Assembly (NCBI GenBank): GCA_902801885.1 | Contig: CADCJX010000027.1 | Location: 1 to 48,874 of the forward strand | Origin: an uncultured Bacteroidia bacterium | GTDB taxonomy: Bacteria; Bacteroidota; Bacteroidia; Bacteroidales; UBA932 | Length of the DNA stretch: 48,874 nucleotides | Direction of reading: 5' to 3' | In this document: positions 3,241 through 28,439 of the stretch, piece after piece | How positions within the stretch are numbered: the stretch's first letter is position 1 | Layout: every line of letters begins with the position of its first letter | Notes under the pieces: model-generated | Told to the model about the DNA's origin: nothing | Databases searched by the model: none | What the model saw: the letters and a program-made list of their open reading frames with translations, nothing else | Position numbers and translations under genes: made by a program

Positions 3241-3286
3241 GAAGTACAGATTGTTAGTTACTTACGTAACAGCTCGCACAAAGGCT

Positions 3287-6866
<3,580 letters not shown>

Positions 6867-6872
6867 GATTGA

Positions 6873-8960
6873 TTATTGTTTAATTTTGTTGATTTGTTCT
6901 TTCATTGTCTTAGCGGCAACCGGGAGCTGTTTTTCAATGTCTTTCCAGCCGCATTCGATGGAGATCCCACCCTTGAACCCTATCTGCTTCAGGGCTTTGA
7001 AATAAGGAGTGAAGTCGTCTCCCTTCTCCCCCGGAGGAGTCCTTTCCTCCAGCTCGGCTATGTGGCAGTGGACCAGCTTGTCGGCTGAATCGATGATTCC
7101 GTCAGGCCCTTCCCCGACACGCATCATGTGGAAGAGGTCTGCGATGACGCATATGTTGGGACTCCCGGTGAGCCTTGAGATTTCTGCACCTTCCCTGACA
7201 GTGTTGATGAAATTGGTTTCGGACTTCTGGAGAGGCTCGATCGCCACGATGACACCGTATTTCTCAGCATCGGGTGCTATCCCTTTGAGTAGAGCGAGGA
7301 ACTGCTCCCTGGCTCTTTCAGTTGAAAAACCTTCAGGGATGTTGCGGGCCTTGCTGCTCCCCAGGACGAGTATCTTTATTCCCGCCTGCGCGGCGCGACG
7401 GATCGCTGTCCTGGAATACTTGATCGCTCTCTGTGTTTCAGCTTCTGGACCGACCAACTTGATTGTGCCAGGGAAAAAGCCGTTGGCTGAATAGATAGGA
7501 AGTCCGGCTTCTTTCATTTCCTTGAGTTTCTGCTCGAAGGTGGCTTCGTCACTTTCCGGGCACAGCTGGTTGACCACATTGGCTTCCAGGTAGTTGAGTC
7601 CGCTGGCCTTGGCCTGCTTAGCCCAGCCGAGGCCGCAGATTCCGATGTGGTTGTCGAGGTCGAAGGAGAACTGCCTGTCCGCAAAGTCCAGCATCCATAG
7701 CCAGTCGATCATCGCTATTCCATGCTCCTGGTCCCTGCGGACGTAGCCGAGGACGGGACCGATGGCCTTGGTGTCGTAGTCATCGGGCCAGGAGACTTCC
7801 GGCAGGCCTGGTTTACCGAGGAACTTCCACACTGGACTTGCTGCCTGGACAGAAAGGAATTCTCCCTTAGTGTCAAACCATGGCTGGTCGAAACCTTCCA
7901 CCAGGAGGGCCCTTGGCGCGACGCAGGTGAGCAGCATGTGCTGGTCGAAGGGCATTATGTCCTCGTGTCCTGCATAACGTCCGTAAGCCTTGCAGTACCA
8001 ATGAGTAAAGCTTTTCATCTCGGTGGTGATAGTCTCTCCGAAGTTGCGCTTTGCAAGCGGAACTCCTCCTCCGCCGGTCTGGTTGGGCACAACCACGGGG
8101 AACCTTTCATCGAAGGCTCCAGCTATCAAGGCGGCTTTTCCGAGCCTTGAAGAACCTGTCAGGAGGACGTGACCCTGGTCAAGCATGGAATCCTTTTCGA
8201 TCATGTCCATCCCTCTTCTCAGGGCCCAGGCCCAGGCTGTAAGGGCTGTGGTGTTGTCTGTCCTCGAAGGGTCTCTCTTGCCCCAGAGGGAGAAGATCCC
8301 GGTGTAGGCGAAATCCTTCTGGAGGAACTCCCCGTCAGGCCCTTTATCTCCTGAATCCGGATCCGGGGAAACATCTGCATAGCAGGCTGTTACAAGAGCA
8401 TATCCTCTTGCTGCGAGCAGGTCGGCGGGGATCCTGGTACGTAGTCCGGGATCCGTGAGTTTCCCACGGGCTTCGGGATCTGCCTTGTTGCCCTTCAATG
8501 ACCTCATCCAGGAATCGGTGACGATTATCTCAGGATCCGGCAGGACGGTGTGGTTGCCTTCATAATTGAGCATAAGCACCGTAGGGACAGGGCCTTTCGC
8601 CCTTGCCGGAGTGATTATCAGCCAGTCGATCGAAGGACCGGTCTTGTCTTTTCTGAACCACATCCTGACCTGCCTGCGAAGTCCGAAGCCGCCCATTGTG
8701 GGCCCTTGTTCGAGGACTTCGGTGACCAAGGCTCCGGGAGCCTCGGGCATGCGTCCGTACATCTCGCTCTGGAAGATCTCCAGGATTTCGTTCCGGCGGC
8801 GGGACCAGTCCTCAGCAGTCCTGACCTTTGTGCCGTCTGCGAAGACAAGGGGATCCTCAAGAGTGTAGGGCCCGACCTTGCTCTCGTCGTAATTGACGCT
8901 CTGGGCCGCCATCGGCAGCGCCAGGATCATGGCCGCAAATACGAAAAATAATTTCCTCAT
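6873..8960 (-). CDS. CE15-like esterase fused to sugar isomerase/epimerase
   Basis: A 695-residue exported protein (signal MRKLFFVFAAMILALPMAAQ). Residues about 25-430 resemble CE15 glucuronoyl esterases: the nucleophile motif reads GSSRLGK (269-275, Ser271) against the usual GCSRxGK, and a candidate catalytic His is H413 in DQEHG. Residues about 435-695 are an AP-endonuclease-2/xylose-isomerase-like TIM barrel: IKILVLGS, VIAIEPLQ, VIADLFHM, CHIAELE and GGISIECGW carry the usual metal-binding Glu, Asp and His. CE15 enzymes cleave esters of 4-O-methyl-glucuronate; the barrel family isomerises or epimerises sugars or keto-sugars. One uninterrupted frame spans both parts. It is first in the operon with the oxidoreductase and GH97. 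Confidence 0.82.
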   Translation of the reverse strand: MRKLFFVFAAMILALPMAAQSVNYDESKVGPYTLEDPLVFADGTKVRTAEDWSRRRNEILEIFQSEMYGRMPEAPGALVTEVLEQGPTMGGFGLRRQVRMWFRKDKTGPSIDWLIITPARAKGPVPTVLMLNYEGNHTVLPDPEIIVTDSWMRSLKGNKADPEARGKLTDPGLRTRIPADLLAARGYALVTACYADVSPDPDSGDKGPDGEFLQKDFAYTGIFSLWGKRDPSRTDNTTALTAWAWALRRGMDMIEKDSMLDQGHVLLTGSSRLGKAALIAGAFDERFPVVVPNQTGGGGVPLAKRNFGETITTEMKSFTHWYCKAYGRYAGHEDIMPFDQHMLLTCVAPRALLVEGFDQPWFDTKGEFLSVQAASPVWKFLGKPGLPEVSWPDDYDTKAIGPVLGYVRRDQEHGIAMIDWLWMLDFADRQFSFDLDNHIGICGLGWAKQAKASGLNYLEANVVNQLCPESDEATFEQKLKEMKEAGLPIYSANGFFPGTIKLVGPEAETQRAIKYSRTAIRRAAQAGIKILVLGSSKARNIPEGFSTERAREQFLALLKGIAPDAEKYGVIVAIEPLQKSETNFINTVREGAEISRLTGSPNICVIADLFHMMRVGEGPDGIIDSADKLVHCHIAELEERTPPGEKGDDFTPYFKALKQIGFKGGISIECGWKDIEKQLPVAAKTMKEQINKIKQ

Positions 8961-9044: not shown

Positions 9045-10514
9045 ATGTACAGGAAAGTATTCATTCTGCTGGCAGCGTTTCTGACGTTGGCCTCTTGTAC
9101 CTCCGAGAAAGATCCGGTGGTGAATTACAAGCTTTATCTTGACTGGCCCGAGCGTAAGCTCCCCGATTTCTCTAAACTCGGAGATCCGGACATCACCGGA
9201 GTCAAGAACAATTTCGACCTGGTGGACATAGACGAGACACTCAATCATTATGCCCTCCTGATGGAGACAACACTGAAGGTCAAGACAGAAGAGGAATATA
9301 CCTTCAAGGCCTCCACCGACGATGGTTCCAAGTTCTACATCGACGGTGAACTCCTTTTCGACAACGACGGAGCCCACGGGCCGATAACGAAGATCGCTTC
9401 CAAGACCCTTTCCAAGGGGAAGCACAATCTCCGGTTCGAGTACTTCGATTGCGACAAGGGACAGTCCATCAACTTTCTCTACAGGACTCCTACGATTGAG
9501 TGGCGTGAGTTGAACGATCATCTACTGGCTGACGAGGACAAGGCCACAGACAAGGATGATTTTGTAAAGCCGCAGATTGACGAAGCCCTGGCAAGATTCA
9601 GCGTATGGAAAGGTGACGATGAGGTCATGGTCTTTCCGATTGTTACCGATGTCCACATGGCCGGCCGCTTCTCGTACAAGCACATCGGCCACGCGGTCAC
9701 AGCAGCGGAGGCTTTCGGAGCTGATTTCATGGTCAATTTCGGAGACATCGGCCTTAACGCCTATCCTGCCACCGAGAATTCAGCCTATGCCAGGGAGATC
9801 GTAGACAACACCAGGGCTCAGATGGACAAGTACGACGGAATCTGGCTTTACACTCCAGGCAACCATGATTGGGATGCCGGAGAAGGGAAGTTCTTCACTG
9901 ATGAGGACCTGTCCGGATTCTTCCAGAAACCATGGCAGGAAAAAGCAGGGGAGAACCTGCACCTGACTCCCGGCAAGACTTACGGCTGGTACGACGTTCC
10001 CGGAAAGGGAATAAGGGTCATATTCCTGAACAGCCAGGGCACAGGGACGCAGAACGGTTCCTATTACCTGTTCGATGATGAGCAGATGGCCTGGCTTCAG
10101 AATCTTCTGGACAGCACTCCGGCGGATCTTCCCGTGATGGTACTTGCCCATTACATGCCGCATCCTCTCGGAAGGTGGACCAACTCCAACCCGACCGAGG
10201 AAGCTCTCTTGAGCAACCGGCGCGTAATGGACATCCTTTCGGCCTTCGCCAGGAAGGGGACCCTGATCGGCATGTTCACCGGGGATGCCCACGTCAATAT
10301 GTACACCAGGGATGAGGGGGTCAACTATTTCATCTCCCAGGGCTACGGCTGGGTCGTTCCTGACCTGATGCTCCCCGGGACCACACATGCCTTCTTTGAC
10401 TACAAGACCAATCTTTGCATCGACGTTTTGGCGGTCAAACCGACCAAGCGCGAAGTACATACATTCCGTATCGGTGCCGGAGGAAAGGACTTTGACTGCT
10501 CTTTCTCCTATTGA
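9045..10514 (+). CDS. PA14-domain calcineurin-like phosphoesterase lipoprotein
   Basis: A 489-residue protein. The lipoprotein signal ends at LASC (about residue 18). Residues about 25-155 are PA14-like (TFKASTDDGSKFYIDGELL, then SKGKHNLRFEYFD), a beta-barrel module often binding carbohydrate. Residues about 180-470 hold the five metallophosphoesterase blocks: TDVHMAG, NFGDIG, TPGNHDWD, LAHYMPH and FTGDAHVN, with all metal-binding Asp, Asn and His present. The enzyme should hydrolyse a phosphomonoester or diester at the cell envelope; its substrate is unknown. It is divergent from the GH97 operon, so a link to it is possible but unproven. Confidence 0.85.
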   Translation: MYRKVFILLAAFLTLASCTSEKDPVVNYKLYLDWPERKLPDFSKLGDPDITGVKNNFDLVDIDETLNHYALLMETTLKVKTEEEYTFKASTDDGSKFYIDGELLFDNDGAHGPITKIASKTLSKGKHNLRFEYFDCDKGQSINFLYRTPTIEWRELNDHLLADEDKATDKDDFVKPQIDEALARFSVWKGDDEVMVFPIVTDVHMAGRFSYKHIGHAVTAAEAFGADFMVNFGDIGLNAYPATENSAYAREIVDNTRAQMDKYDGIWLYTPGNHDWDAGEGKFFTDEDLSGFFQKPWQEKAGENLHLTPGKTYGWYDVPGKGIRVIFLNSQGTGTQNGSYYLFDDEQMAWLQNLLDSTPADLPVMVLAHYMPHPLGRWTNSNPTEEALLSNRRVMDILSAFARKGTLIGMFTGDAHVNMYTRDEGVNYFISQGYGWVVPDLMLPGTTHAFFDYKTNLCIDVLAVKPTKREVHTFRIGAGGKDFDCSFSY

Positions 10515-14843: not shown

Positions 14844-15938
14844 ATGGACAGAACACTGGACACCATCCCCGTATCTGAATGGGGATTCTTCGACGAAAGC
14901 ATACCTCCGATCGTCATTGCCGGACCCTGCAGCGCAGAGTCGGAACTTCAGGTGATGATGACCGCCAAGGGACTTCATGAATTCGGGATACACGTCTTCC
15001 GTGCAGGAATATGGAAACCCCGCACCCATCCGGGTTCCTTCGAGGGCGCAGGTGTGCCCGGCCTCAAATGGCTGCAGAAAGTCAAGAAGGAATTTGGGAT
15101 GAAGGTCTGTACCGAAGTCGCCAACGAAAAACATGTTTACGAGTGCATGAAGTACGGAATAGACATGGTGTGGATCGGTGCGAGGACGACAGCCAATCCC
15201 TTCATGGTCCAGGAAATAGCAGATGCCCTCCATGACACTGATATCCCGGTGCTTGTCAAGAACCCGGTCAATCCGGACCTCGATCTCTGGGTCGGGGCCC
15301 TGGAAAGGCTCAACAGGGCCGGTGTAAAGAAACTCGGTGTCATACACCGTGGCTTCTCAACTACGCAGAAAATACCTTACCGCAATCTCCCCGGCTGGCA
15401 GATCGCAGTCGAATTGCGTACTCGTTATCCCCAGATCCCTTTCTTTGCCGATCCAAGTCACATGGGCGGCTCGCGCCAGTACTTGAAAGAGCTCTCGCAG
15501 AGGGCCATGGACCTTGGCCTTGACGGCCTCATGGTCGAATCCCACTGCGACCCTTCATGTGCTCTGAGCGATGCTTCACAGCAACTTGTCCCCCAGGACC
15601 TCAAGACCCTGCTGGAAAGTCTGACAGTGAGGCAGAAACGTACCAATGACAAGGAGTACAACGAAAACATCGAGCAGCTCCGCGCAAGGATTGACGTGAT
15701 CGACGAGAATCTTCTTATCTCACTTGGTTCCAGGATGGAAGTGTCCCGGAAGATGGGTGAGTTCAAGAAGGTCCACAACATCGCCATCGTCCAGGCCGAA
15801 CGATGGGAAGAACTTATGGCCGACATGATTGCCAAGGGCAAGACTTACGGCCTTTCCGAAAAATTCATCACGGATGTCTTCAATGCCATCCACGAAGCCT
15901 CAGTAGCAGAACAAAACCGCATTCTCGAAAGCAAGTAA
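14844..15938 (+). CDS. DAHP synthase-chorismate mutase fusion
   Basis: A 364-residue bifunctional enzyme. Residues about 20-260 are a KDSA-like (type I-beta) DAHP synthase that condenses PEP and erythrose 4-phosphate: IVIAGPCSAESE, FRAGIWKPRTHPGSFEG, VWIGARTTANPF, LVKNPVNPD, and FFADPSHMGGSRQYL. Residues about 275-364 are an AroQ-type chorismate mutase helix bundle (QLRARIDVIDENLLISLGSR, then KMGEFKKVHNI). The fusion joins the first shikimate step to the branch-point step, and in relatives the mutase part also gives feedback sensing. The family order (synthase first) matches known Bacteroidota fusions. It closes the aromatic operon. Confidence 0.94.
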   Translation: MDRTLDTIPVSEWGFFDESIPPIVIAGPCSAESELQVMMTAKGLHEFGIHVFRAGIWKPRTHPGSFEGAGVPGLKWLQKVKKEFGMKVCTEVANEKHVYECMKYGIDMVWIGARTTANPFMVQEIADALHDTDIPVLVKNPVNPDLDLWVGALERLNRAGVKKLGVIHRGFSTTQKIPYRNLPGWQIAVELRTRYPQIPFFADPSHMGGSRQYLKELSQRAMDLGLDGLMVESHCDPSCALSDASQQLVPQDLKTLLESLTVRQKRTNDKEYNENIEQLRARIDVIDENLLISLGSRMEVSRKMGEFKKVHNIAIVQAERWEELMADMIAKGKTYGLSEKFITDVFNAIHEASVAEQNRILESK

Positions 15939-16090: not shown

Positions 16091-17593
16091 TTAGAATCCA
16101 GGGTTCTGGACGAGGTTGGGGTTGACCTGCATTTCGTAGGTCGGGACCGGCCATGTGAGCTTGTCAGTTCCGGCGGCAACTGTCCTCTGCTCGTAAGCAG
16201 CACCCTTCATGATGATGAGCTCGGTTCCTTCCTGAGGAGTCCTGGCACCCATTCCGTCGCCCCAGCGCTTGAGGCAGCTCAGACGCAGACCTTCACCGAC
16301 AGTCTCCTTGAACCACTCGTTCTTGATGTTCTCCATGGTACCCTCGGTCAGGGTAGCGTGCCTTGCAGTCTGGAGAGCGTTGAGGATCTCGGTTGCCTTG
16401 GCAGTGTTGCCGGCCTGTGCATTGGCCTCTGCTGCGATCAGGTACATCTCTCCGATGAGGAGGGTCTTCCTGGCGTGGCGGGCCTGAGGTACGGTACCGG
16501 AGTTGAGAGCCGGGTTGTTGTAGTACTTCGTGAAGGTGTAGAACTCACCTGTGCGGTATGATCCGGAGACGAAGTTGGGAATCGTGTTGCTGAACCAATG
16601 AGTGAAACGGAGGTCTCCCTCGTCATAAGCCTCGACCAGCTTCTTGGTAGGGAAGTAGTAGGAGCGGAAGTTGAGACCATGCTCACTGTCGTTGTTCGTC
16701 AGGGTGTAGATGTCATTGACGCCGTAGCCTTCGCTCTTGGAAGCGTACATTTGGATGATAGGCTCTGTACCCTCATCATTGATGTACTCAGCATCCATCT
16801 CCTCGTCGGTAGAGGCGAGCTTGTAATGTCCGGTGTTGATGACACCCTCAGCGTATTTGGCGGCGTTGGCATAGTCCTTTATGTCAAGGTAGTACCTTGC
16901 ATAGAGGGCGTTGACAGCGTCGATGGTAGGGTAGTCTGCCCTTGCTTTGCCAGTCTCACCGCTAAGGATAGCGGCAGCTGCGTCGAGGTCGGACTTCACC
17001 TGGGCGTAGACCTCTGCCACGGTAGCCCTTGCGGGCTTCTCAAGCTGGTCATACACGGTGATGAGCGGAACAGCAAGGTCAGAAGATGAACTGCTTCCGT
17101 AGGGCTTTCCGAAATGCCTTGCAAGATGCAGGTATGAGGAAGCACGGCAGAAGAGAGCCTCTCCCTTTACGAACTGTGCATAGTCCTTGAGGCTTTCGTC
17201 GACATTGTCTGCGTTGGCGATGAGGATGTTGTAGTTCTTGATGGCTCCGAAGTGGCCGGACCAGTGGTCACGGGTGTTGTACTCACCATCGTTGAAAGAA
17301 TCGTCGAGTCTGTGGACGGCTCCGTAGTTGTTACCATAGTCGATTGAGGCGTTGAAGTAGTCGCACATGACCTCCTGGGTCTGTGAGTAGACTCCATAGG
17401 AAGTGCTTCTGTAGGATGCGAGAACACCGTTTTCGAACTCGGAAACGTCAGTCTGGGTGAGCATGACAGGATCTCCCTCGATGTAGGCGATGGATGTCGT
17501 CGGAGTGAGATTCAGGTCGCAGGACGAAAGAACCAAAGCCATCGCCGCAGCGGCAATCAGTGAATATCTGAATGATTTCTTCATGACTTTCAT
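16091..17593 (-). CDS. SusD/RagB family nutrient-binding lipoprotein
   Basis: A 500-residue outer-membrane lipoprotein (signal ending LVLSSC, then Asp, typical for surface export). It has the tetratricopeptide-rich SusD layout: N-terminal helix region (FNDGEYNTRDHWSGHFGAIKNYNILIANAD), a middle DAVNALYARYYLDIKDYANAAKYAEGVI repeat helix, and a C-terminal WFKETVGEGLRLSCLKRWGDG block followed by a YPVP-like WPVPTYEMQVNPNL end. SusD proteins cap their SusC partner and bind the glycan. The gene follows its susC after 10 bases. It depends on the susC promoter, so it should switch with the invertible segment. Confidence 0.93.
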   Translation of the reverse strand: MKVMKKSFRYSLIAAAAMALVLSSCDLNLTPTTSIAYIEGDPVMLTQTDVSEFENGVLASYRSTSYGVYSQTQEVMCDYFNASIDYGNNYGAVHRLDDSFNDGEYNTRDHWSGHFGAIKNYNILIANADNVDESLKDYAQFVKGEALFCRASSYLHLARHFGKPYGSSSSSDLAVPLITVYDQLEKPARATVAEVYAQVKSDLDAAAAILSGETGKARADYPTIDAVNALYARYYLDIKDYANAAKYAEGVINTGHYKLASTDEEMDAEYINDEGTEPIIQMYASKSEGYGVNDIYTLTNNDSEHGLNFRSYYFPTKKLVEAYDEGDLRFTHWFSNTIPNFVSGSYRTGEFYTFTKYYNNPALNSGTVPQARHARKTLLIGEMYLIAAEANAQAGNTAKATEILNALQTARHATLTEGTMENIKNEWFKETVGEGLRLSCLKRWGDGMGARTPQEGTELIIMKGAAYEQRTVAAGTDKLTWPVPTYEMQVNPNLVQNPGF

Positions 17594-17603
17594 TGTTTAA
17601 TAA

Positions 17604-20591
17604 TTAGAATGTAATCTCAATACCGCCGAGGTGCTGCTTGGTGTTACCGACCTTACCGTAGGAAAGGTTGGAGTTGACCTCGGGATCGATACCGCTGTAC
17701 TTCGTGAAGGTGAGGAGGTTACGTCCTGTGTAGGTGATTCTCACTCCACTCAGGACACCGTGGGTCCAGTCGAGCCAGCGCTTAGGCAGGCTGTAGCCGA
17801 CCTGGAGGTTCTTCAGACGGAGGAAGCTGGCGTCCTCAAGGAGGTGGGAGTCGAACTGCATCATGTAGTTCTGCCAATCAGGCCATTTTGCATCTGTATT
17901 CTGAGGAGTCCAGAAGTCTGCGACCATCTTGTGGGTGTTCATGCCGGCGAAGTAGCTCGGGTTGGCATAGAAGAATCCATCGTTGGAGATGAGGGTCTTG
18001 CCGAGAACGTAGGAGAAATCAGTTGCGAACGAGAGGTTCTTGTAGTGTCCGGAAAGACCGAAACCACCATTGATAGGAGCGTAGCGGACCTTGCCGGAGT
18101 TCTGGGTCAGAGCGGCCTCGCTGAAGTCCCTGGTGGTCCTGGCGGGATCCTTGGTGGTCACGTTAGTGTCCTCACCGGGGAGGTACCATGTAGGAGCTCC
18201 GTCAGAGGGATCGATACCTGCGAACAGAGGGTAGTAGAAGGAAACGGGCTGGCCGACAACATAGGTGATACCTGTGTTGGCGATTGTCCATTCAGTCCTT
18301 CCGTCGAACAGTTCAGTGATGATCTGGCTGTTGTAGTTGAAGGTGGTGTTGAACCTGAGGTTGTAGTCCCTTGCCTGGAGAATGTCAACTCCGAGGGTGA
18401 CGTCGATACCCCTGTTCCTCAGTCCGCCGACATTGGCGGTCAGGCTTGAGAAACCTGTGGTGTAAGGATAAGGAACATCCATGAGCATCGAGGATGTCTG
18501 TCTGTTGTAGAATGAGATGTCGAAGTCGAGGGCGTTGAACACACGGCCGGTCAGGGCGACGGTAAGCAGAGCCTGCTTCTCCCATGTGAGGCCGTTGTTG
18601 CTCGGACTGGAGATGATCTTGGAGGTCTTGGTAGCGTAGGAAGTGGTGGTACCGACCTTTGCAAGGGCAGCGTAGTCACCGATTCCGGCATTACCCTGTG
18701 TACCGTAACTGACCTTGAGGTTGAGGTCGTTGACCCATGAAGCATCGCTCATGAAGCCTTCCTTCTTGATCTTCCACATGGCACCCGCGGACCAGAACCA
18801 TGCATTCCTGTTATCCCTACCGAACCTGGAGCATGCATCGTTACGGACAGTGGCATCGATGATGTACTTATCCATGTAGGAGTAGTCGGTGTGGGCGAAA
18901 TAGGAGAGGAACTTGCTCTCTGTGTGGCTTTCGCTCATGCCGTAGGTGTCCTGGGTACCGTTCTGGAGGTTCATCAGGCGGTCATCAGTCTGGTTCGAAG
19001 AGCTGGCATAGTAGTAATCGTAGAAGTTGGCGATACCCTCATGGCCGAGAAGGAAGGACATGTGGTTGTCCTGGTTGATGTCGAAGGAGTACTCGATGGT
19101 GTTGGTGATGGTGGCGGAGTACTCGAATTGAGTGGACTTACCCTTATTACCGGAACCTGCATTGGCATAGTAAGTAGGGTAGCTTAACCAGTTGTCGAGG
19201 ACGATGTAGCCGTCGATACCGGCCCTGGAGACGAACTTCAGGTTCTTTACTGGCTCGATCTCAACATAGGCGTTGCCGTTGGTTCCGTAGCGGTCGTAAC
19301 GGTCAGGGTTCTTGGCCATCTGGTACTGAGGAACGGGACGACCGTCGGAGAATCTTTCTGCCGGCAGGTTGCCGTTCTCGTCAACTGCAGGATAGAGAGG
19401 GAGGAGGAGGAAGGAAAGACCACCCCTGGTGGAGTTTGACATATTTTCAGAGTCTCCCCAGTTGCCGTTCTGCTGACGCTTGTCGAGGTTCATACCGAGA
19501 TTGACACCGACCTTGAGCCAGTCCTTCGGACGACCCTGGACGTTGGAACGGAGGGTGTAACGGTCGTAGTAGTTGCCGATGGAGGTACCCCTCTGGTGGA
19601 ACTGTGAACCGCCGATCATGTAGGCGATCTTGCTACCGCCGCCCTCGATGGTCACGTCGTTCTGGTACTGGGGGTTGTTGAACTGCTGGTAGTAGTTGTA
19701 CCACTTGGTGTCAGCGTCGAGACCCTTGTCGGTGAAATTCCTCTTGATTTGTTCTGCGGTGTAGATGCCTGCGTCAATCCAGAACTGCTTCAATTCGGGA
19801 CCGCTCATCATGCTCTTGTAGAGAGTCATGTCTGCAAGGGTGGAAACGCCGTACTGGGAACGGACGGAAACGGATGCCTTGGAATCATAGGAACCGCTCT
19901 TGGTGGTGACATAGACGACACCGTTAGCAGCACGAGCACCGTAGATGGAGGTTGCGGAAGCGTCCTTCATGACGGTGATGTTCTTGATGTCATTAGGGTT
20001 CATACCCATGATGGCACGGCTGGATGAAGGAACACCGTCGATGATGTACAGAGGAGTGGAACTGGCTCCGAGGGAACCGATTCCGTGGATGGACATCGAG
20101 ACAGCGTTGTCACCGGCGACACCTGAAGAAGAAAGGACGGACAGACCTGCAACCTGACCCTGGAGAGCATCAAGGGCTGAGGAAGAAGGTGCATTCTTCA
20201 AGACTTCAGATTTGACTGTGGCGACTGAGCCCACCAGGGAGCCCAACTTTTTAGCTGATCCATAACCCACGACGACAGCATCTTCAAGGACATTCTTGTC
20301 CTCCTGGAGTTGTACGTCGATGACGGCCTTCCCGGCCACGGGGACGGTCATTGTCTCGAAACCGATGACCGAAAAGACGAGTTTGCCGTTTGAAGGCACG
20401 CTGATGGAGTACTTACCGTTGGCGTCGGTAGAAGTACCGCTCAATGTTCCCTCAACCATGACGGTTGCTCCGGGAATCGGAGCTCCGTTCGAGGCTTCGG
20501 TGACCGTACCTGTTACGGTCACGTTTTGCGCAATAGCCATGCCGATGCTTGCGCACAGGCACAACAGCAAAGAGAATAACTTTTTACTCAT
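17604..20591 (-). CDS. SusC family TonB-dependent receptor (leftward, likely off)
   Basis: A 995-residue outer-membrane receptor that imports glycan fragments with TonB energy. Parts are a signal peptide (1-21, ending in AIAQ), a carboxypeptidase-regulatory-like domain (about 22-100), a plug (DAVVVGYGSAKKLGSLVGSV, then SIHGIGSLGASSTPLYIIDGVP and KDASATSIYGARAANGVVYVTT), and a 22-strand barrel to the C-terminal Phe. The frame is intact. The leader and first 18 codons lie in the 89-bp inverted repeat, and only 68 bases separate the start from the recombinase stop. In this orientation it therefore seems to lack a dedicated promoter and can only receive read-through from the recombinase gene. Confidence 0.95.
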   Translation of the reverse strand: MSKKLFSLLLCLCASIGMAIAQNVTVTGTVTEASNGAPIPGATVMVEGTLSGTSTDANGKYSISVPSNGKLVFSVIGFETMTVPVAGKAVIDVQLQEDKNVLEDAVVVGYGSAKKLGSLVGSVATVKSEVLKNAPSSSALDALQGQVAGLSVLSSSGVAGDNAVSMSIHGIGSLGASSTPLYIIDGVPSSSRAIMGMNPNDIKNITVMKDASATSIYGARAANGVVYVTTKSGSYDSKASVSVRSQYGVSTLADMTLYKSMMSGPELKQFWIDAGIYTAEQIKRNFTDKGLDADTKWYNYYQQFNNPQYQNDVTIEGGGSKIAYMIGGSQFHQRGTSIGNYYDRYTLRSNVQGRPKDWLKVGVNLGMNLDKRQQNGNWGDSENMSNSTRGGLSFLLLPLYPAVDENGNLPAERFSDGRPVPQYQMAKNPDRYDRYGTNGNAYVEIEPVKNLKFVSRAGIDGYIVLDNWLSYPTYYANAGSGNKGKSTQFEYSATITNTIEYSFDINQDNHMSFLLGHEGIANFYDYYYASSSNQTDDRLMNLQNGTQDTYGMSESHTESKFLSYFAHTDYSYMDKYIIDATVRNDACSRFGRDNRNAWFWSAGAMWKIKKEGFMSDASWVNDLNLKVSYGTQGNAGIGDYAALAKVGTTTSYATKTSKIISSPSNNGLTWEKQALLTVALTGRVFNALDFDISFYNRQTSSMLMDVPYPYTTGFSSLTANVGGLRNRGIDVTLGVDILQARDYNLRFNTTFNYNSQIITELFDGRTEWTIANTGITYVVGQPVSFYYPLFAGIDPSDGAPTWYLPGEDTNVTTKDPARTTRDFSEAALTQNSGKVRYAPINGGFGLSGHYKNLSFATDFSYVLGKTLISNDGFFYANPSYFAGMNTHKMVADFWTPQNTDAKWPDWQNYMMQFDSHLLEDASFLRLKNLQVGYSLPKRWLDWTHGVLSGVRITYTGRNLLTFTKYSGIDPEVNSNLSYGKVGNTKQHLGGIEITF

Positions 20592-20624
20592 AAGCTTAAA
20601 CCTTAATTAAACTTAATATTTAGT
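20536..20624 (-). repeat. 89-bp inverted repeat, left copy
   Basis: The reverse complement of 20536-20624 is identical, base for base, to 21925-22013. The copy covers 33 bases of leader and codons 1-18 of the leftward susC. The match ends sharply on both sides. A perfect repeat of this length flanking a recombinase gene marks a site of recombination or gene conversion. Confidence 0.97.
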
Positions 20625-20659
20625 TAAAGCTTATGTAATGGAATGGACCGAAACGGGTC

Positions 20660-21583
20660 TTAGAGGATTTCCAGCATCTTTTCAACACATCGTCGTTTAC
20701 GCTCCATGTCAGGGTGGACATATAGGTTCATTGTGGTGCCGACATTGGCATGACCCAGGAGGGAACTCAAGGTCTTGTAGTCGCAATCGGCTTCCACACA
20801 TCGCGTAGCAAACGTGTGCCGGAGGCTGTGAACCTTCCTAGGAGGCAGCTTAAGGGAGTCGGTGACCCTCCTGAAATTGTTCCTGAAAGTCTGTGGATCC
20901 GCGGGGGTGGTCCTTCCGGATGCTATGAAATAACTCTTGTTCCTTCCTTTCCGGAGTTTATGGAGTATTTCTACAAGCAGTCCGGTTATCGGGACATCGC
21001 GAACTGAAGTGAGAGTCTTCGGCGGCCCGATCACTACTTCCGTGCGGCCTTTGCCATTTTCAAGGTGGTAAATCCTGTAGATTGTCTTAGAGATGTGGAT
21101 GACGCGGTTGAAGAAATCCACGTCTTCCCATTTAAGGGCGCACACTTCACCGATCCTGAGTCCGCAGCAGAGGCAGATCAGAAGTCCGGTGTTCTTGCTG
21201 GTAGGGTGATCTGAGAGGTAGTTCAGCAGCATCTTCTCTTCTTTGACAGGAAGCACAGACGGCTGGTTCTTCCTCTTGATCTTTTGCGGGAACCTTACAT
21301 CCAGTACAACATTGTCGATCCACCCGCGCTTCTCGCCGAAGCGGACGATCATTTTCAAGACTACCAAGATACCTTTTAGAGTAGAAAGGGTCATACCCTT
21401 ATCGACAGCTCCATCTACCAGTTCCTGCACCCTGTCGGGTGAGACATCCTGGAGATAGGTGAAATTAGGTTTCAAGTGTTTTTCGACAGTCAGCGAATAT
21501 GCTGCCATCGAGCTGGCCTTGACATAGGCCCGCTTGTCGGCTTCCCATAGCTGGCAAGCGATATTAAATGGGATATGAGACAT
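20660..21583 (-). CDS. Tyrosine recombinase, probable susC-locus invertase
   Basis: A 307-residue tyrosine site-specific recombinase. It has an N-terminal SAM-like DNA-binding part (about 5-90) and a catalytic domain with all six residues of the class: R143 (GLRIGEVCAL), K189 (PPKTLTSVRD), H252 and R255 (HSLRHTFATR), H278 (LLGHANVGTT) and nucleophile Y288 (NLYVHP). It lies wholly inside the perfect inverted repeats, so it would invert with its own segment. Its stop is 36 bases from the left repeat, so its transcript probably runs into the leftward susC. No transposase, excisionase or cargo accompanies it, which favours a local invertase over an integrative element. Confidence 0.93.
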   Translation of the reverse strand: MSHIPFNIACQLWEADKRAYVKASSMAAYSLTVEKHLKPNFTYLQDVSPDRVQELVDGAVDKGMTLSTLKGILVVLKMIVRFGEKRGWIDNVVLDVRFPQKIKRKNQPSVLPVKEEKMLLNYLSDHPTSKNTGLLICLCCGLRIGEVCALKWEDVDFFNRVIHISKTIYRIYHLENGKGRTEVVIGPPKTLTSVRDVPITGLLVEILHKLRKGRNKSYFIASGRTTPADPQTFRNNFRRVTDSLKLPPRKVHSLRHTFATRCVEADCDYKTLSSLLGHANVGTTMNLYVHPDMERKRRCVEKMLEIL

Positions 21584-21924
21584 GGTTATTATGGTTATAA
21601 GTATTGATTTTAAATGTATTAGTATATTAAATCGTATTATGTTAGAAAAATTGCTTTCGTTTCAATCTGTAACCAAAACTTGGATTATTTGAACAATGTT
21701 TAAGGGCTGACTTTTGAGATTCGGAAAGCTTGATTGGGTAAAACGATATAAATTCCACTATTTTCTCATTTTTGGCCTTTAAAAACTGTTGCATTATTCC
21801 ATTTTTATTACTTTATTTGTATGTCGGTTTTTGCAGTTTATGTACTCTTAAGGGCTAATTGTCCCCATTTTGACATTCCTGTTTCTACCGGCCCAGAATA
21901 GTTGAGATTATCATCTATTTTATC
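21584..21924 (+). promoter_or_regulatory. Non-coding control region inside the invertible segment
   Basis: These 341 bases are A/T-rich and have no plausible gene. The best promoter candidate is GTTG at 21788-21791, then 20 bases, then TTTATTTG at 21812-21819 (one mismatch to TAnnTTTG), pointing right. It would give a leader of about 130 bases ahead of the susC ATG at 21958. The 9-mer TTAAGGGCT occurs twice in direct orientation (21700-21708 and 21848-21856) and could be a regulator site. A minus-strand TACATTTA just upstream of the recombinase start may be its own -7 box. Confidence 0.45.
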
Positions 21925-22013
21925 ACTAAATATTAAGTTTAATTAAGGTTTAAGCTTATGAGTAAAAAGTTATTCTCTTTGCTGTTGTGCCTGTGCGCAA
22001 GCATCGGCATGGC
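21925..22013 (+). repeat. 89-bp inverted repeat, right copy
   Basis: Identical to the reverse complement of 20536-20624. It covers 33 leader bases and codons 1-18 of the rightward susC. Beyond it, the two genes diverge immediately (the next codons encode FAQ here and IAQ in the other gene), so the exact identity is confined to the repeat. Confidence 0.97.
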
Positions 22014-25000
22014 ATTCGCGCAGAACATCACCGTCAATGGTACGGTGACGTCCGCCGAGGACGGGCTTCCGGTCATCGGAGCTTCCGTCTTTGTCCAGGG
22101 AACTACCAATGGCGCCATCACTGACGCCTCCGGTAAGTACACCCTCCGCAATGTCCCTACAGGCAGCACCCTCGTGTTCTCCTGCATCGGTATGGTCAAC
22201 CAGACCAGACCTGCTGCTGCAACGGTCAACGTGGTGCTCGCCCCTGACACCGAGATGCTCGACCAAGTAGTCGTCACGGCCCAGGGCCTGAAGAGACAGG
22301 AGAAGGCCATCGGTTACTCGACTGTCAAGATTGCCGGTGAAAAACTGACTGTTGCCCGTCAGACCGACCTCGGTCAGTCCCTCGCCGGAAAAGTTGCCGG
22401 AGCCCGCTTCTATTCAAGTTCCGGTTCAACCTTCGATTCCGGTTCCATCGTTCTTCGTGGTACCCAGGCCTATGGTTCCTGGGGTGGTAGCGAGCCTATC
22501 TACGTCGTTGATGGAACTATTACCAACAAGAACGCCGTCAACATGGACGATATTGAGAGCATCAATGTTCTGAAAGGCCCTGCGGCTACTGCTCTTTACG
22601 GTTCCCAGGGAGGCAACGGTGCTGTCATCATCACCACCCGTGGTGCCAGGAGCGGTGAGACCCATGTCGAGTTCAGCCACACTACCACCATGGAGCGTTA
22701 CTACAACCATCTCAGGCTCCAGCATGAATATGGTGGCGGTTCCGTTGGTGAGACCGGCCAGCTCCTCGGTCAACTTGACAGCTACAAGGACATTGATACC
22801 ATGTCGCCACAGTACCTCTTCGGAGAGCGCCTCGGATACCAGAACCCCGACGGTTCCTATAATATGGAATGGGGAAATGATGAAAACTGGGGCCCCCGCT
22901 TCGACGAGAACGTGAAGGTTGCTTCCGCTTTGTACTGGGATCCTACCAGCAGCAAGTACATGCAGGCTGACCCTTGGATCAGCAGATTCAACCCTGCTGA
23001 CATGTTCCGTACCGGTTGGACCAACACCACCAACGTGGCAGTTTCCAACGGCGGCCCTACCCACAACACCCGCGTGTCCTTCACCAACACTGACCGCTCG
23101 AGTATCATGACCAATGCGAAGGCTGTCAGGCGTTATCTCACGATGAAGACCAACATCAAGCCTACCTCATGGCTCAACCTTTCCCTCGACTATAAGTTCA
23201 CCTACAGGCAGAACCATAACTCCGCCGGTGACGGTTACTCCGCTCTGGGCAGCCCTCTGGCTGACTTCATCCAGTGGGGTCACATGAACCTTGATTTCAA
23301 GGATATGAGAGATTGGGAGCGTCCGGACGGAAGCGTCAGGACATGGAACATCACTTCCAAGACCAACTTCCAGCCGACCTACCACGACAACCCGTACGCC
23401 TATGCTAATCTGCACAATGCCTATTCCACCTACCTGTGGAATGTCATCACTGGCGACGCCGAGGTTATCCTCCCTTGGAACTTCAAGGTCGGAGCAAGGA
23501 TTATGGGTAACATCCGTAACTATCACGGAGAGACCACTAATCATCAGGCCGGAAATGTCCGCAACTGGACCTCAGGTTACAGCGAGAGCCAGGATCATGT
23601 CGTAGATATGACCTACCAGGGCCGTATCACATGGGACAAGAACCTTTTCAATGACCGCCTCGGTATCAATGCCGCAGCCTTCATCGAGGAAGAGACCTAC
23701 GACTACGGTTCATTGAGTTCCAACACCAACGCCGGACTCATCATCCCGAAGCTCTTCAACCTTTCTAACTCGATCAACACCTACTCCACCAGCAACTCCG
23801 TGACCAAGTACATCACTCGCTCGGTCTATGGTAACGTGACTGCTGGATTCGATGACACCTTCTTCCTTGATCTCTCTATCCGTAATGACTGGGATTCCAG
23901 GTTGCCTGTTTCACAGAACCACTACCTCTACGGCGGTGCCTCCGTCTCCATCATGCTGAACAAGTTCATCAAGGCCAGCTGGCTCGACTTCTGGAAACTG
24001 CGCGCAAGTGCTGCACAGGTAGGATCCACGATGGGTGCCTATGCCACCACTTATGTGTATGGTATCGGATCAAGGTACAACAACGCCATCTCTTCGATGG
24101 GTGTTCCTACAACCCAGATCGATCCCAACCTGAAGCCTACCATCTCCACTTCCTACGAGGTCGGTACCGAGTTCAGGATGTTCAAGAACAGGCTGCACGG
24201 TGACATCAACGTCTACAACAGGCCAGACCGGTTGGAACATGAGGCAGGTCAACGCCGGTCTCGTCCGCAACCGTGGTATCGAGTTTGAAATCGGTGGCGA
24301 CATCATCCGTACCAGGGATTTCACTTGGGATGCTGATTTCAACATCGCTAAGAACGTCAACACCCTGGTTGAACTCCACCCTGAACAGAAGCAGTACTTC
24401 CTCCGTTATGACAAGTTCAACTACGAGTTCGGAATGTACTCGATCGAGGGTGAGCCTGTCGGTGTTCTCTACACTGGCGGACGCTTCAAGAGGAACGATG
24501 AAGGACAATATGTTCTCAGGGCTACCACTTCCGCTGCCCAGAAGCAGAACTTCGGTGACTACATGCCCATCATTGACACTGAAGAGAAGGTGGTCGGTAA
24601 CTTTCAGCCCGACTTTACCGGTGGTTTCTCCACTGGGTTCCGTTATAAGACTTGGTCTCTCAACATGAGCTTCGACTACACCATCGGTGGTGACATCTTC
24701 TCATGGACCAACCTCTGGATGCAGGGCTCCGGCCTTGCCGCCGAGACTGCCGAGTTTAATGACAACGGCATCAACGTCCGTGAACCTGTCGCTAAGGGCG
24801 GCGGTGTCCATGTCGTGGGTGTCGATGAGAGCGGCAACCCCGTTGATACCCACATCCAGTCTTGGAGGTGGTACCAGTACAAGTCCAACTATGACAATGA
24901 CGGTGTTCTCTACAAGAGGACTTACCTGAAGATGCGCGAGCTCTCTCTCACCTATGCCCTGCCCAGGAAGTTTGTCAACAGCCTCGGCATCGGTTTGAAT

Positions 25001-25153
25001 TCCGCCAGTGTGTCCTTCGTGGCTTCCAATCCCTGGCTGATCTACTCCGCCTGCCCTAACTTCGACCCTTCGGAGGCTGGCAGCAACTATCTTGAGGGAG
25101 GACAGACCCCTGCTTCAAGAACCTTCGGTCTCACCTTCAGGTGCATGTTCTAA
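21958..25153 (+). pseudogene. SusC family receptor, frameshifted (promoter-facing copy)
   Basis: A full-length SusC in two frames. From ATG at 21958 the first frame gives a signal peptide, carboxypeptidase-regulatory-like domain, plug (EPIYVVDGTI, GSQGGNGAVIITTRG) and most of the barrel, then runs out at 24288 after DINVYNR. The homologous barrel continues one frame over (TGWNMRQVNAGLVRNRGIEFEIGG) to a normal C-terminal Phe at 25153. In related receptors about 15 residues normally separate the YN and TG positions; here they are almost adjacent, so a small out-of-frame deletion of about 40 bases near 24221-24230 is likely. It could be a real null allele or an assembly error. As read, it cannot make a complete receptor. 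Confidence 0.8.
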
Positions 25154-25182
25154 TTAATATGGATAATATGGAGGTAATGATT

Positions 25183-26715
25183 ATGAAAATTATGAAGAAA
25201 TCCATAATTGCGGCCCTTGTTTTTGCCGCTTCGCTTACGAGCTGCAACTTCAGTGATTTCGGTGACATCAACATCTCTCCGAACTCCCCTGGAACAGCTT
25301 ACACAAATCTGCTCTTCACCAACGCCTGCTTCACCGTCAGGAATTTCATATCCGCTGACACATATGACTACTGGCAGCCGAACCATGTAGGTTATCTGGC
25401 AGAATCCGGCAACAACCAGTTCGGATCCCTGATGACGACCTATGAGTTCGACACCAGAGGCTACTACTATGGCTCCATGAAAATCCTCAACAAGGTCATC
25501 GAGATGAACAGGGATGAGGAACAGAAGGATGAGGTCAACGTCAAGCAGTTCTGCTCGAGCAATGAGAATCAGATCGCAGCTGCATTGACATTGAGGGCTT
25601 TCATCATGATGCACCTTACCGACTGTGTCGGTGCCCTGCCTTGGTCAGAGGCTTGGAAGGGAGAGGACGAGAATATCTGGACCCCTGTCTTCGATTCCCA
25701 GCAGGATATCTACAATGCTCTGTTCAACGAGCTTGAAGAGGCCTACGGAATGTTCCAGGAAGGTGCAAACCTCTCATCAGCTGACATCCTCCTGGGTGGA
25801 AACATCGCACGTTGGAAGAAGTTCAACGCTTCTATCCGCATGGACATGGCTCTCAGAATTTCTGACGTTGACGCTGCCACTGCAAAGACTCGTTTCTCCA
25901 CCGCTTTCAACCAGGGTGGATTCAACGAGGTCTCTGAGCAGCTCAACTACAAGTACGACACCAGAGCTACGAATTCTCCCCTCTACCCGGTTGCAACATC
26001 TCCTTCCAGGAACCTGGCATGGGGTCCTAACGCCATGATCGTGGATGCTCTCAAGGAGTATCAGGATCCTCGTATGTTTGCAAGGTTCACCATCGGTGAG
26101 GATGCTTACCTCGGCAAGAGGGAGGGCGATCCTACAGACTACAATGCATATTTCGGAATTACCTTCGGTCTTCCTGACAACCCTTCAGTCATAGCAGAGG
26201 CTAACGCTTCCTGCTCCCTGACCGACAGGTTCTGTGTCCAGGATGCCAACTACGGACTGTTCACCGCATCCAGGAACCTCTTCAACATCGCTGAGGCTAT
26301 CCAGAAAGGACTCGTCTCCGGTAATGCTGCGGAGTATTACGAGAAAGGTATCCGTGCTTCGTTCACTTTCGAGGGTGCTGACGGTGCTGACGAGTACGTC
26401 GCCGCTCATCCGCTTCCCGCTGACAATGAGGGTGCTATCAAGGAGATCTGCATGCAGAGATGGATCGCTGGATTCATGACTGACTGTATCTCAACTTGGT
26501 CAGACTGGAGGAGGACCAATATTCCTGAGATGCCTCTAACTGAGTACCAGGTTCTGAACCATCCCGGTCACACGACCTATCCCGTCCGCTTCCTGTATTC
26601 CTCTACCGATTCAGAGCGTAACCCTGAGCAGTACAAGGCTGCAGTCAGCAAGTATCTCGGTGGTAATGACGACCAGTGGGTACGTCTCTGGTGGGATGTC
26701 ACTCCTAACGAGTAA
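25183..26715 (+). CDS. SusD-like lipoprotein (SusD-like_2 type)
   Basis: About 510 residues from ATG at 25183; several in-frame ATGs lie upstream, but a GGAGG about 8 bases before this one and the start MKIMKKS (compare MKVMKKS in the other susD) favour it. The lipoprotein signal ends at SLTSC. The mature part begins INISPNSPGTAYTNLLFTN, with WQPNHVGYLAES, AAALTLRAFIMMHLTDCVGALPWSEA and WKKFNASIRMDMALRISD, the pattern of the SusD-like family that partners long SusC proteins. It follows the broken susC after 29 bases. Its C-terminal block (MQRWIAGFMTDCISTWSDWRRT) is intact, so the gene itself looks functional. It belongs to a different SusD subfamily from the leftward partner. Confidence 0.9.
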   Translation: MKIMKKSIIAALVFAASLTSCNFSDFGDINISPNSPGTAYTNLLFTNACFTVRNFISADTYDYWQPNHVGYLAESGNNQFGSLMTTYEFDTRGYYYGSMKILNKVIEMNRDEEQKDEVNVKQFCSSNENQIAAALTLRAFIMMHLTDCVGALPWSEAWKGEDENIWTPVFDSQQDIYNALFNELEEAYGMFQEGANLSSADILLGGNIARWKKFNASIRMDMALRISDVDAATAKTRFSTAFNQGGFNEVSEQLNYKYDTRATNSPLYPVATSPSRNLAWGPNAMIVDALKEYQDPRMFARFTIGEDAYLGKREGDPTDYNAYFGITFGLPDNPSVIAEANASCSLTDRFCVQDANYGLFTASRNLFNIAEAIQKGLVSGNAAEYYEKGIRASFTFEGADGADEYVAAHPLPADNEGAIKEICMQRWIAGFMTDCISTWSDWRRTNIPEMPLTEYQVLNHPGHTTYPVRFLYSSTDSERNPEQYKAAVSKYLGGNDDQWVRLWWDVTPNE

Positions 26716-26771: not shown

Positions 26772-26863
26772 AGATTCTTCGGTCACTTCGTCACCATATA
26801 TATTCTTCGGTCACGTTGTTCCCTCAGAATGACATGTCATCCTGAGCGCTAGCGAAGGATCTA
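26772..26863. repeat. Dispersed REP-like repeat cluster
   Basis: Related modules occur in both orientations: AGATTCTTCGGTCACTTCGTC near the left end, a second TATTCTTCGGTCACG copy, then CAGAATGACA and TGTCATCCTGAGCG with AGCGAAGGATCT at the right end. The right module is close to the reverse complement of the left ones, so the cluster can fold into a long imperfect hairpin. From memory, elements with this TCATCCTGAGCG...GAAGGATCT wording are scattered through Bacteroidales intergenic regions. No other copy is visible in this window. Confidence 0.6.
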
Positions 26864-28009
26864 ATAGTCAGTGTGGAAATTTCTCAAGGCCTCGAGTAGT
26901 GAAGTCTCGAAGACCTCCTTTTCATGCTCGGAGAGGAAACCGACCTCGATCGGCACCTGGAAGAGGCGCACCTTGAGGTCATGCGGGATATTCCCAAGGT
27001 CAAGGATCCTCTGGCAGTCCTTCTCGGTAGTCGCCACCACTGCGGTGGGATGTTCGCGGACGGCGTTCATTATCCTGCGGACATCGTACTTGGTGTACTT
27101 GTGATGGTCCTCGAAGCAGAAACGCTTGACGATTTTGTGCTCGTCGCTGAGGTACATCCGCAGGGGAGTGTCCTTCGCTATTCCTGAGAAGAGGATTAGT
27201 TTCTGTGAATAGGCGTACCTGGGATCAGCCTCTTCGAATATGGGGTTGAGGGCGCTGTACCAGATGGTTGTGAAGAGCAGGATCTTTTCTTTCCCTTTTC
27301 TGTCTGTGCCCTTGCAGGTCATTGTGTCATAGTCCTTGAGACCGAAGGTCTGGGCCCACTCGATCTTCTTTGAGTCTTCTAGGTAAGCCGGACATTTTGA
27401 GACTATGATTATGTCGGCTGCGCTGAATCTTTCCGGGAGGTCGCGGAGCCGTCCGAAGGGGAGGAGCTTGTCCTTGTAGGTGGGACGGTTGAAGTCGACC
27501 AGGATTATGTTGTAATAGGCTCTCAGGGCCCTGTACTGGAAGGCGTCATCGAGTACGATCAGGTCAGCCGGGGCGATTTCTTCGCTTGCACTTTTGCGGG
27601 CTCTTTTTTCCGTTTTGAGTTTCTCGGGATGGCAGAGCAGGTCGCAGCCCTTGACCCTGTGACGGTCAACTGCGACTGTCACCCCCGGGAATTTCTTCTT
27701 TATCTGGAGCGGCTCGTCACCATATTCCTTGACAGATCCGTCCCTTTTCACGATCTGGAAGCCTCTGCTTGCCCTGAGGTGCCCCCTTGAGAGGACTGCG
27801 ATGTCTTCATAGGCCCATTCATCGCTCTTGAGGAGGGTTCGAAGGATCATTTCAGTGTGGGGAGTCTTGCCTGTACCGCCGGCGGTGATGTTGCCGACGC
27901 AGATCGTGGGGACCTCGCAAGTGCTGACCTTGCGGATTCCATGGTCGTAAAGATAGTGCCTCAGCTTGAGTGTTAGATAATACGGGGCAAGGATGATCTT
28001 GTCAAGCAT
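26861..28009 (-). CDS. lpxK: Tetraacyldisaccharide 4'-kinase
   Basis: About 382 residues from ATG at 28009 (a TTG at 28018 is also in frame). It phosphorylates the 4' position of the lipid A disaccharide at the inner membrane. The N-terminus has a membrane-associated helix (LDKIILAPYYLTLKLRHYLY), then the P-loop VGNITAGGTGKTPHTE, the LSRGHLR segment, GDEPLQIKKKFPGVTVAVD, and the DDAFQYRAL motif of LpxK. The C-terminal Rossmann half ends with TEKDCQRI. Length is slightly above the usual 330-350, as is common in Bacteroidota. It is apparently a single gene; upstream is a long non-coding tract. Confidence 0.95.
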   Translation of the reverse strand: MLDKIILAPYYLTLKLRHYLYDHGIRKVSTCEVPTICVGNITAGGTGKTPHTEMILRTLLKSDEWAYEDIAVLSRGHLRASRGFQIVKRDGSVKEYGDEPLQIKKKFPGVTVAVDRHRVKGCDLLCHPEKLKTEKRARKSASEEIAPADLIVLDDAFQYRALRAYYNIILVDFNRPTYKDKLLPFGRLRDLPERFSAADIIIVSKCPAYLEDSKKIEWAQTFGLKDYDTMTCKGTDRKGKEKILLFTTIWYSALNPIFEEADPRYAYSQKLILFSGIAKDTPLRMYLSDEHKIVKRFCFEDHHKYTKYDVRRIMNAVREHPTAVVATTEKDCQRILDLGNIPHDLKVRLFQVPIEVGFLSEHEKEVFETSLLEALRNFHTDY

Positions 28010-28439
28010 AGGCCACAAAGATACAAAAAACGAGTTATTTCTTGATTATCTAATCTCATTTTCTCCTATTCTCCTTCTCTTCCGCCTCAGGCCATTCTTT
28101 TCTCCTTTTCTTTCGTCTCAGGTCCTCCTTTGGCCATGATAACGCCCAAATCCTTCCCTTTGGTCCACCTGTGGTGTCTGTCAGGGAAGGAAAGTGCCGA
28201 TTTCCTGACCTTTTAACCACCTAGGTCTCGTGTTGCGAGAACAAATTGGTCGGGGGAAGAAAAAGGGAACGGGAAAGAAAAGGGAACGGGAAAGAAAAGG
28301 CAAGGGTTAAGGGTAAAGGGGAAAGTAAGGGAAGTAAAGAATAGTAAGTTAAAGTAAGTTAAAGTAAGTTAAGGTAAGTTAAGGTAAAGTAAGTTAATAA
28401 AGTAAGGTAGGGGAATGTAAAATAAGGGGAAGGATAGGG
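28010..28439. other. 430-bp non-coding, strand-asymmetric tract
   Basis: No gene is visible. The half nearest lpxK (about 28040-28140) is pyrimidine-rich on the plus strand. The other part (about 28244-28440) is almost free of C on the plus strand. It includes two copies of a 17-base unit (28261-28277 and 28278-28294) and four to five copies of a 10-base unit AAAGTAAGTT (28341-28396). A small hairpin, TCTCG/CGAGA, sits near 28226-28240. On the minus strand, downstream of dusB, the RNA would be C-rich and G-poor. Confidence 0.6.

Follow-up and report, generated by a model that had tools for sequence, protein, structure and literature searches.

How does a single promoter come to stand between two outward-facing receptor genes whose first codons are identical, and can it serve both? 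This question is raised by a locus in a 48,874-nucleotide stretch of DNA from an uncultured Bacteroidia bacterium (Bacteroidales, UBA932; assembly GCA_902801885.1, contig CADCJX010000027.1, positions 1 to 48,874 of the forward strand), hereafter called the window. Two divergent susC genes, each followed by a susD gene, share a perfect inverted repeat of 89 base pairs (bp) at their starts and flank a gene for a tyrosine recombinase, hereafter called INV. An earlier note made from the letters of this DNA had proposed that the region between the repeats inverts and that the locus alternates between two receptor pairs. The evidence presented below makes it very likely that the ~1.3-kilobase (kb) segment, with the recombinase that it encodes, works as an invertible switch from one SusC/SusD pair to the other.

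The two copies of the perfect repeat, located by a repeat search, lie at 20536..20624 and 21925..22013 and are separated by 1300 bp. Each arm consists of a 33-bp leader and 56 nucleotides (nt) of coding sequence, covering the first 18 codons of a susC gene; the left arm belongs to susC1 (17604..20591, minus strand, start codon at 20591) and the right arm to susC2 (21958..25153, plus strand, start codon at 21958). The repeat has sharp edges on its inner side and grades into gene homology on its outer side, where a longer imperfect inverted repeat (20446-20624 / 21925-22103) extends over 179 nt with 83% identity. Because the 89-mer occurs just twice in the 2.46-Mb genome, both times at the switch locus, chance is ruled out as its source. 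Furthermore, because the two SusC proteins align over 234 amino acids with an identity of only 43%, 89 identical bases exceed what plain paralogy would leave. Inversion of 20536-22013 in silico leaves both susC open reading frames (ORFs) unchanged. Since the leader, the start codon and the signal-peptide codons all lie within the repeat, either receptor would be rebuilt unchanged by a flip.

INV (20660..21583, minus strand, 307 amino acids) is encoded within the segment flanked by the repeats. Its Pfam scores are 8.9e-27 for PF00589 and 1.1e-5 for PF14659, and its best matches among solved structures are Int proteins, followed by XerA. The R, K, HxxR, H and Y positions, which we take to be catalytic, are conserved throughout an alignment of 12 sequences, namely that of the window and those of 11 relatives. 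Judged by its sequence, INV is a tyrosine site-specific recombinase.

The remainder of the segment (21584..21924, plus strand) is a control region delimited by locus alignment, whose other strand is the INV 5' region. It carries an outward promoter motif, TTG-N20-TTTATTTG, and a conserved GTCGGTTTTTGC block, and no further copy of it was found in the window genome. The motif ends 138 nt ahead of the start codon of susC2, toward which it is directed; susC1 is on the far side of INV, where there is no promoter motif. The conserved block, approximately TTGCATtATTCcA..TTTATTcTTTTATTTGT-AyGTCGGTTTTTGC, aligns on the INV 5' side in eleven loci, and the opposite (INV 3') side has only the site and no conserved block in five loci. 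For scoring, the motif was written as TTG-N18..22-T[AT]NNTTTG, a form presumed to be of the Bacteroidota type, and was sought within 300 nt upstream of susC. Counted without a shuffle control, it is present in the main clade on 11 of the 12 arms at the 5' side of INV, where it ends 124-138 nt short of the start codon, on none of six opposite arms (only 156 nt being searchable in locus L156), and in all six single-receptor loci with an INV fossil or without INV. The one promoter-side arm that lacks the motif is that of L102, whose block has four differences. No match was found in contig C22 of genome G116 (87 nt searchable), on the right side of its contig C36, or in L154 (81 nt searchable). 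Thus the elements described in the earlier note, namely the repeat over the leaders and 18 codons of two divergent susC genes, the intact recombinase and the promoter-like region between the copies, all hold, the repeat with exact coordinates, and a flip in silico alters neither reading frame, as the note had proposed.

These elements suggest the following mechanism. INV would act on the segment at ~20625-21924 by recombining the inverted sites that lie at the start codons of the two susC genes. The one outward promoter on the segment would allow only one pair to be transcribed, here susC2/susD2; susC1/susD1, located behind the INV 3' end with no promoter of its own, would receive at most read-through from INV. 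Inversion would then transfer the promoter to the other SusC/SusD pair. These transcription states are predicted from the sequence, and we infer that INV catalyses the flip and that the window strain still switches. Folding of five INV/silent-susC junctions gave no G+C-rich hairpin followed by a U-run, that is, no terminator of that type; the L108 junction can form a weak A+U hairpin ending in U's.

If the segment inverts, related genomes should show receptors in both states. The core of the site, TTTAAGCTTATGRGTAAAAAATT, with at most one mismatch, is present in 21 of 400 genomes of the genus, own genome included, and a reversed control gave 0 throughout. In 19 of these 21 genomes the locus adjoins at least one of two chromosomal markers that also neighbour it in the window: on the left a gene for DAHP synthase/chorismate mutase, here called aroG (14844..15938, plus strand), and on the right lpxK (26861..28018, minus strand). 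Receptors related to susC1 of the window by at least 84% amino-acid identity are on the promoter side in L038, L104, L106 and L076 and on the promoter-less side in the window and L067, and a shortened copy (83% over 84 amino acids) occupies the promoter-less side in L106. The susC2 type, at the same threshold, is on the promoter side in the window, L102, L107 and L108 and on the promoter-less side in L156; the promoter-less side of L102 carries a susC2-type copy at 73%. A third type, R, is a 5.8-kb cassette attached to one end of the segment in G341, where it is promoter-less, and to the other end in G116, where it is on the promoter side. The two R cassettes are 88.7% identical in nucleotides and 94% in SusC amino acids, and their INV segments are 87.5% identical. 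The comparison of related genomes for both orientations, which the earlier note had put forward as a check, therefore finds three receptor types on the promoter side and on the promoter-less side.

The same genomes bear on whether the repeat could be an assembly duplication, as the earlier note had considered. The window genome is a draft of 31 contigs, and contig ends near INV relatives are frequent. However, a like arrangement occurs in other genomes (L102/L007, L106, L108 and L152), each with its own arm sequences, and a duplication made by the assembler is extremely improbable.

The related loci form a series of states. Two outward receptors surround INV in seven genomes: the window, L102 (G231), L106 (G464), in which one of the two receptors is cut by a contig end, L067 (G049), in which INV is damaged, L108 (G268), L152 (G341), and G116, whose locus is distributed over contigs C22 and C36 and whose right-hand site heads a degenerate susC start. 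Six genomes have INV with one outward neighbour (L038, L039, L103, L104, L107 and L076). Among these, L104 has a further receptor pair in tandem, the contig of L107 ends within susC, and the truncated INV of L076 lies beside a remnant resembling the 3' end of susD. One genome (L157) retains an INV fossil of 36 residues, and five (L155, L158, L160, L161 and L162) have the site and one receptor without INV. The contigs of G222 (L154) and G225 (L159) begin inside the segment, as does a second contig of G049 (L156). In all six single-neighbour INV loci the retained neighbour is on the promoter side, which is what a silent, dispensable second pair would lead one to expect.

A sign of inversion within a single genome comes from G116, in which the end of the aro-side contig C22 and the start of the lpxK-side contig C36 share an exact stretch of 99 bp that has no further copy in that genome. 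The stretch comprises 75 bases of the segment and 24 of the core, and it stops exactly where the outer flanks diverge. Such a break would arise in a k-mer assembly because reads run into both flanks if both orientations are present, as the contigs suggest; the right-hand junction in C36 is unbroken. A weaker sign is that 14 of 72 INV relatives lie less than 500 bp from a contig end against 3.0 expected (P=2e-7), a count that excludes the own genome, four matches without known contig size and a few short or weak pieces. Some genes in this count are cut, and contigs also break at ordinary repeats. Two other breaks were rejected as signs of inversion: contig C26 of G268 starts in a 99-bp exact repeat and contig C9 of G464 in a 286-bp inverted homology of 94%, and neither break needs an inversion.

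Homologous recombination between the divergent susC paralogues could also keep the arms alike and occasionally flip them, with INV as a passenger integrase. The arms do sit in homologous genes, and L042 and L102 have long imperfect inverted homology that runs through the genes. However, INV or a damaged INV lies between the susC genes in all seven genomes with two outward susC genes at the locus, and the break in G116 falls at a repeat of merely 24-27 bp, which is short for a RecA-type exchange. A passenger origin also fits poorly with the finding of no INV relative among viral contigs in a scan that reaches close relatives only, and a viral origin of INV was rejected on the same result. Exchange by general recombination is thus a very unlikely explanation, and site-specific inversion by INV is preferred.

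Two features of the arms are candidates for the point at which INV would exchange strands. A dyad search found TAAGTTTAA-TTAAGGT-TTAAGCTTA in the left arm (20591..20615, minus strand) and in the right arm (21934..21958, plus strand), with these two matches in the window and 0 in 100 shuffles. The dyad appears to resemble a tyrosine-recombinase core with a 7-bp spacer, and it also folds as a leader hairpin, so that it is a candidate for either role. Comparison of loci defines a core, TTTAAGCTTATGRGTAAAAA..., that is common to related loci and includes the start codon of susC1 (20578..20600, minus strand) and that of susC2 (21949..21971, plus strand); elsewhere in the window genome it has one match only, with 3 mismatches. 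Together with the uniqueness of the 89-mer and of the control region, this led to the rejection, as far as closely similar sequences are concerned, of sites acting at other places in the genome. Because a tract of ~20 bp around the start codon is identical in both arms of every two-arm locus, the exact crossover may lie within this tract. The core is also kept in five loci without INV, and therefore a leader or coding function may help to conserve it.

Several observations weigh against a switch that works as proposed. First, susC2, the receptor connected to the promoter, reads as frameshifted in this assembly by an apparent 38-bp deletion near 24,225 in the barrel region, either a mutation or an assembly fault. 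Its first ORF (21958-24288) encodes 776 amino acids and the remainder lies in another frame (24200-25153). The 38 bp are present in L156, in both L102 copies and in L108, from three related genomes, and the susC genes of these loci are single ORFs of 1075-1077 amino acids. The proposed alternation between two receptor pairs is supported as far as an invertible, recombinase-encoded switch is concerned, given the unchanged ORFs and the receptors found on both sides, and falls short in that one SusC is frameshifted here. Second, the inner part of the dyad, the candidate spacer, differs between the arms in L102, L106, L067 and L108; of the five two-arm loci in the main clade, the window alone has the same dyad in both arms. 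Therefore the crossover may sit nearer the start codon, or those four loci have stopped switching. Third, the arms are homogenised in just three of six two-arm loci: identity within the locus over the first 54 coding nt is 1.00 in the window and 0.96 in L106 and L108, and 0.76, 0.74 and 0.67 in L102, L067 and L152, against a between-locus baseline with a mean of 0.73 and a maximum of 0.87 in 60 comparisons. Fourth, the branch formed by G341 and G116 departs from the main clade in that its promoter is at the 3' side of INV; the motif is on the left arm of G341 and not on the right, and the same promoter letters occur near the start of contig C36 in G116. Fifth, when 7 of the 16 listed contig ends, taken from six genomes, were searched over ten genomes, G116 remained the only case of its kind. 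Sixth, the window genome is a single assembly of its species and has one orientation only.

Finally, receptor pairs also swap sides relative to aro and lpxK. The promoter points toward lpxK or away from aro in the window, L102, L106, L038, L039, L103, L104, L076 and L157, and toward aro or away from lpxK in L108, L067, L107, G341 and G116, where not every locus shows both markers. Therefore, cassette exchange or larger inversions contributed to the present arrangements, and comparison across genomes alone does not isolate the inner inversion.

These points bring up the possibility that the locus once switched and is now fixed, with INV or its sites inactive and the 89-bp identity left over from a recent conversion. 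Decay is common here, as seen from the truncated INV of L076, the damaged INV of L067, the fossil in L157 and the five loci without INV, and the frameshift in susC2 of the window agrees with it. Against a fixed locus, INV of the window is full length with all its catalytic positions, and the two arms match at every one of 89 bp, dyad included, where the SusC proteins have diverged to 43%. A switch that has come to rest is therefore unlikely for the window, and one that remains invertible accounts better for an intact recombinase between identical arms.

How far the genus as a whole follows this pattern is a wider question. We are about evenly divided between accepting and doubting that the aro-lpxK interval of the genus is a two-slot receptor dock with a self-inverting promoter module, in which cassettes are swapped and change sides between species, and in which lineages that lose first the silent pair and afterwards INV end with a single receptor in a locked state. 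The recombination site would double as the leader, start codon and first codons, and any SusC/SusD cassette that starts with the site would fit either slot, expressed or silent. Relatives of INV occur in 32 of 200 related genomes (E<=1e-30) and in 39 of 400 genomes of the genus (E<=1e-85), own genome included in both, and in 10 genomes outside the genus when 344 genomes were searched for relatives in other families of the order (E<=1e-70). Such relatives thus also occur away from the aro-lpxK locus and in other families. Nine other INV-relative loci (8 outside the genus and L207 inside) have neither a window-like susC/susD match within the 1.5 kb or less available on each side nor an exact repeat of at least 16 bp spanning the recombinase, and those of G178 and G187, outside the genus, have no susC match.

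Other arrangements were seen near site or recombinase relatives. In L104 the promoter-leader-site block is directly duplicated (10133-10492 / 14988-15346) with 86% identity between the copies, and each receptor pair has one. L042 (G049:C202) and L110 (G268:C26) form a second, non-syntenic group with an INV relative between inverted susC starts; L042 has a 59-bp exact tract, and the contig end of L110 resembles a susC start over at least 99 bp. Another group of INV relatives has a different repeat, approximately GGGAATCTCAAATTCGGGACATTA, just 5' of the recombinase, which occurs again in inverted orientation 2-5 kb away in three loci (L048, 5390-5416/9301-9327; L049, 7031-7059/9301-9329; L052, 10375-10397/15016-15038) and also at the ends of contigs G104:C23, G247:C83, G222:C10 and G116:C10. 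This group is probably a separate inversion system with its own site. In L064, a 28-bp inverted repeat (16891-16918 / 17273-17300) lies at the starts of two divergent susC genes 354 bp apart, with no recombinase between the copies and an INV relative ~7 kb away; its promoter is possibly flipped in trans. L059 has a 75-bp perfect inverted repeat (3257-3331 / 4698-4772) with 1366 bp between the copies, ~4 kb from an INV relative.

The receptors themselves belong to the SusC/RagA family by profile search: against the TIGR04056 cut-off of 368 bits, susC1 (995 amino acids) scores 671 and the N-terminal ORF of susC2 scores 372, both above it. Their partners are susD1 (16091..17593, minus strand, 500 amino acids; SusD-like_3 / SusD_RagB) and susD2 (25141..26715, plus strand, 524 amino acids; SusD-like_2). 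To the left are genes for an amino-acid-kinase family protein, ribosome recycling factor, prephenate dehydratase, an aminotransferase, prephenate dehydrogenase and the DAHP synthase/chorismate mutase, and to the right are lpxK, dus and phosphofructokinase. The earlier note had called the receptors glycan receptors, a label that found no support: no carbohydrate-active enzyme adjoins the receptor pairs among the 17 window proteins scanned with Pfam, and the nearest carbohydrate-type gene, glucuronyl-esterase/xylose-isomerase-like (6873-8960), is ~7 kb away beyond housekeeping genes.

The locus would represent a compact two-state receptor switch with its invertase on board, placed at the same chromosomal markers across uncultured Bacteroidales species. 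Because each evolutionary state is preserved (two receptors, one, fossil and locked), one can compare directly how phase-variable receptors, for nutrients or phages, arise and decay. The orientation of the switch can be counted in existing metagenome reads.

Comparable layouts are known from other bacteria. Salmonella Hin also has the recombinase gene and an outward promoter inside its own invertible segment; a recombinase gene in that position, an arrangement confirmed here, is hence not new by itself. Hin, however, is a serine recombinase and INV a tyrosine recombinase, and, unlike in the window, the Hin promoter serves one side only and its repeats lie outside the coding sequence of the target. 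The inversion systems of sapA in Campylobacter fetus and of omp1 in Dichelobacter nodosus, which belong to other phyla and concern other proteins, resemble the present proposal: homologous genes for surface proteins diverge from a segment with a promoter, and this segment inverts via the 5' ends that the genes share. To our knowledge, these systems have no dedicated recombinase gene inside the segment. The pneumococcal hsdS locus has a tyrosine recombinase gene, that of CreX, within the rearranging locus, but it swaps coding domains and alters the protein, whereas the window locus keeps its proteins unchanged. Tsr0667 of Bacteroides fragilis is likewise a tyrosine recombinase, and the clusters that it controls differ from the window locus, in which the recombinase gene is inside the flipping segment. 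The label Tsr-type used in the earlier note is an analogy only: the Tsr0667 motif, AGTYYYN4GDACT, is absent from the repeats, and its one match in the window, at 41548, compares with 0.62 expected.

Inversion of SusC/SusD genes has been described in Bacteroides fragilis (PMC5729914, PMC4747536, PMC12632263), and a further report describes invertible regions near susC/susD whose orientation differs between patients with inflammatory bowel disease and controls (PMC10939037). In strain YCH46, Tsr0667 is responsible for inversions of the shufflon type at three SusC/SusD clusters (PMC4747536), and in region EE of NCTC 9343 inverted repeats overlap the susC/ragA start codons and link alternative SusC/SusD pairs to one promoter (PMC5729914). 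The window locus is like this shufflon in having inverted repeats at the susC start codons, and region EE is thus a precedent for that placement (PMC5729914). Region EE moves large segments, placing alternative genes behind an invertible promoter, and the master invertase Tsr0667 acts at nine regions besides the SusC/SusD clusters; in contrast, the window locus has two fixed pairs and its 89-bp repeat is found at one locus only. Within the portions of the open-licence literature that were accessible, no locus was found that combines two fixed receptor pairs with a tyrosine recombinase on board, a single outward promoter, start-codon sites and a conserved chromosomal place with receptor turnover. 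It is this combination of known features, and not each feature, that sets the window locus apart from the known SusC/SusD inversion systems.

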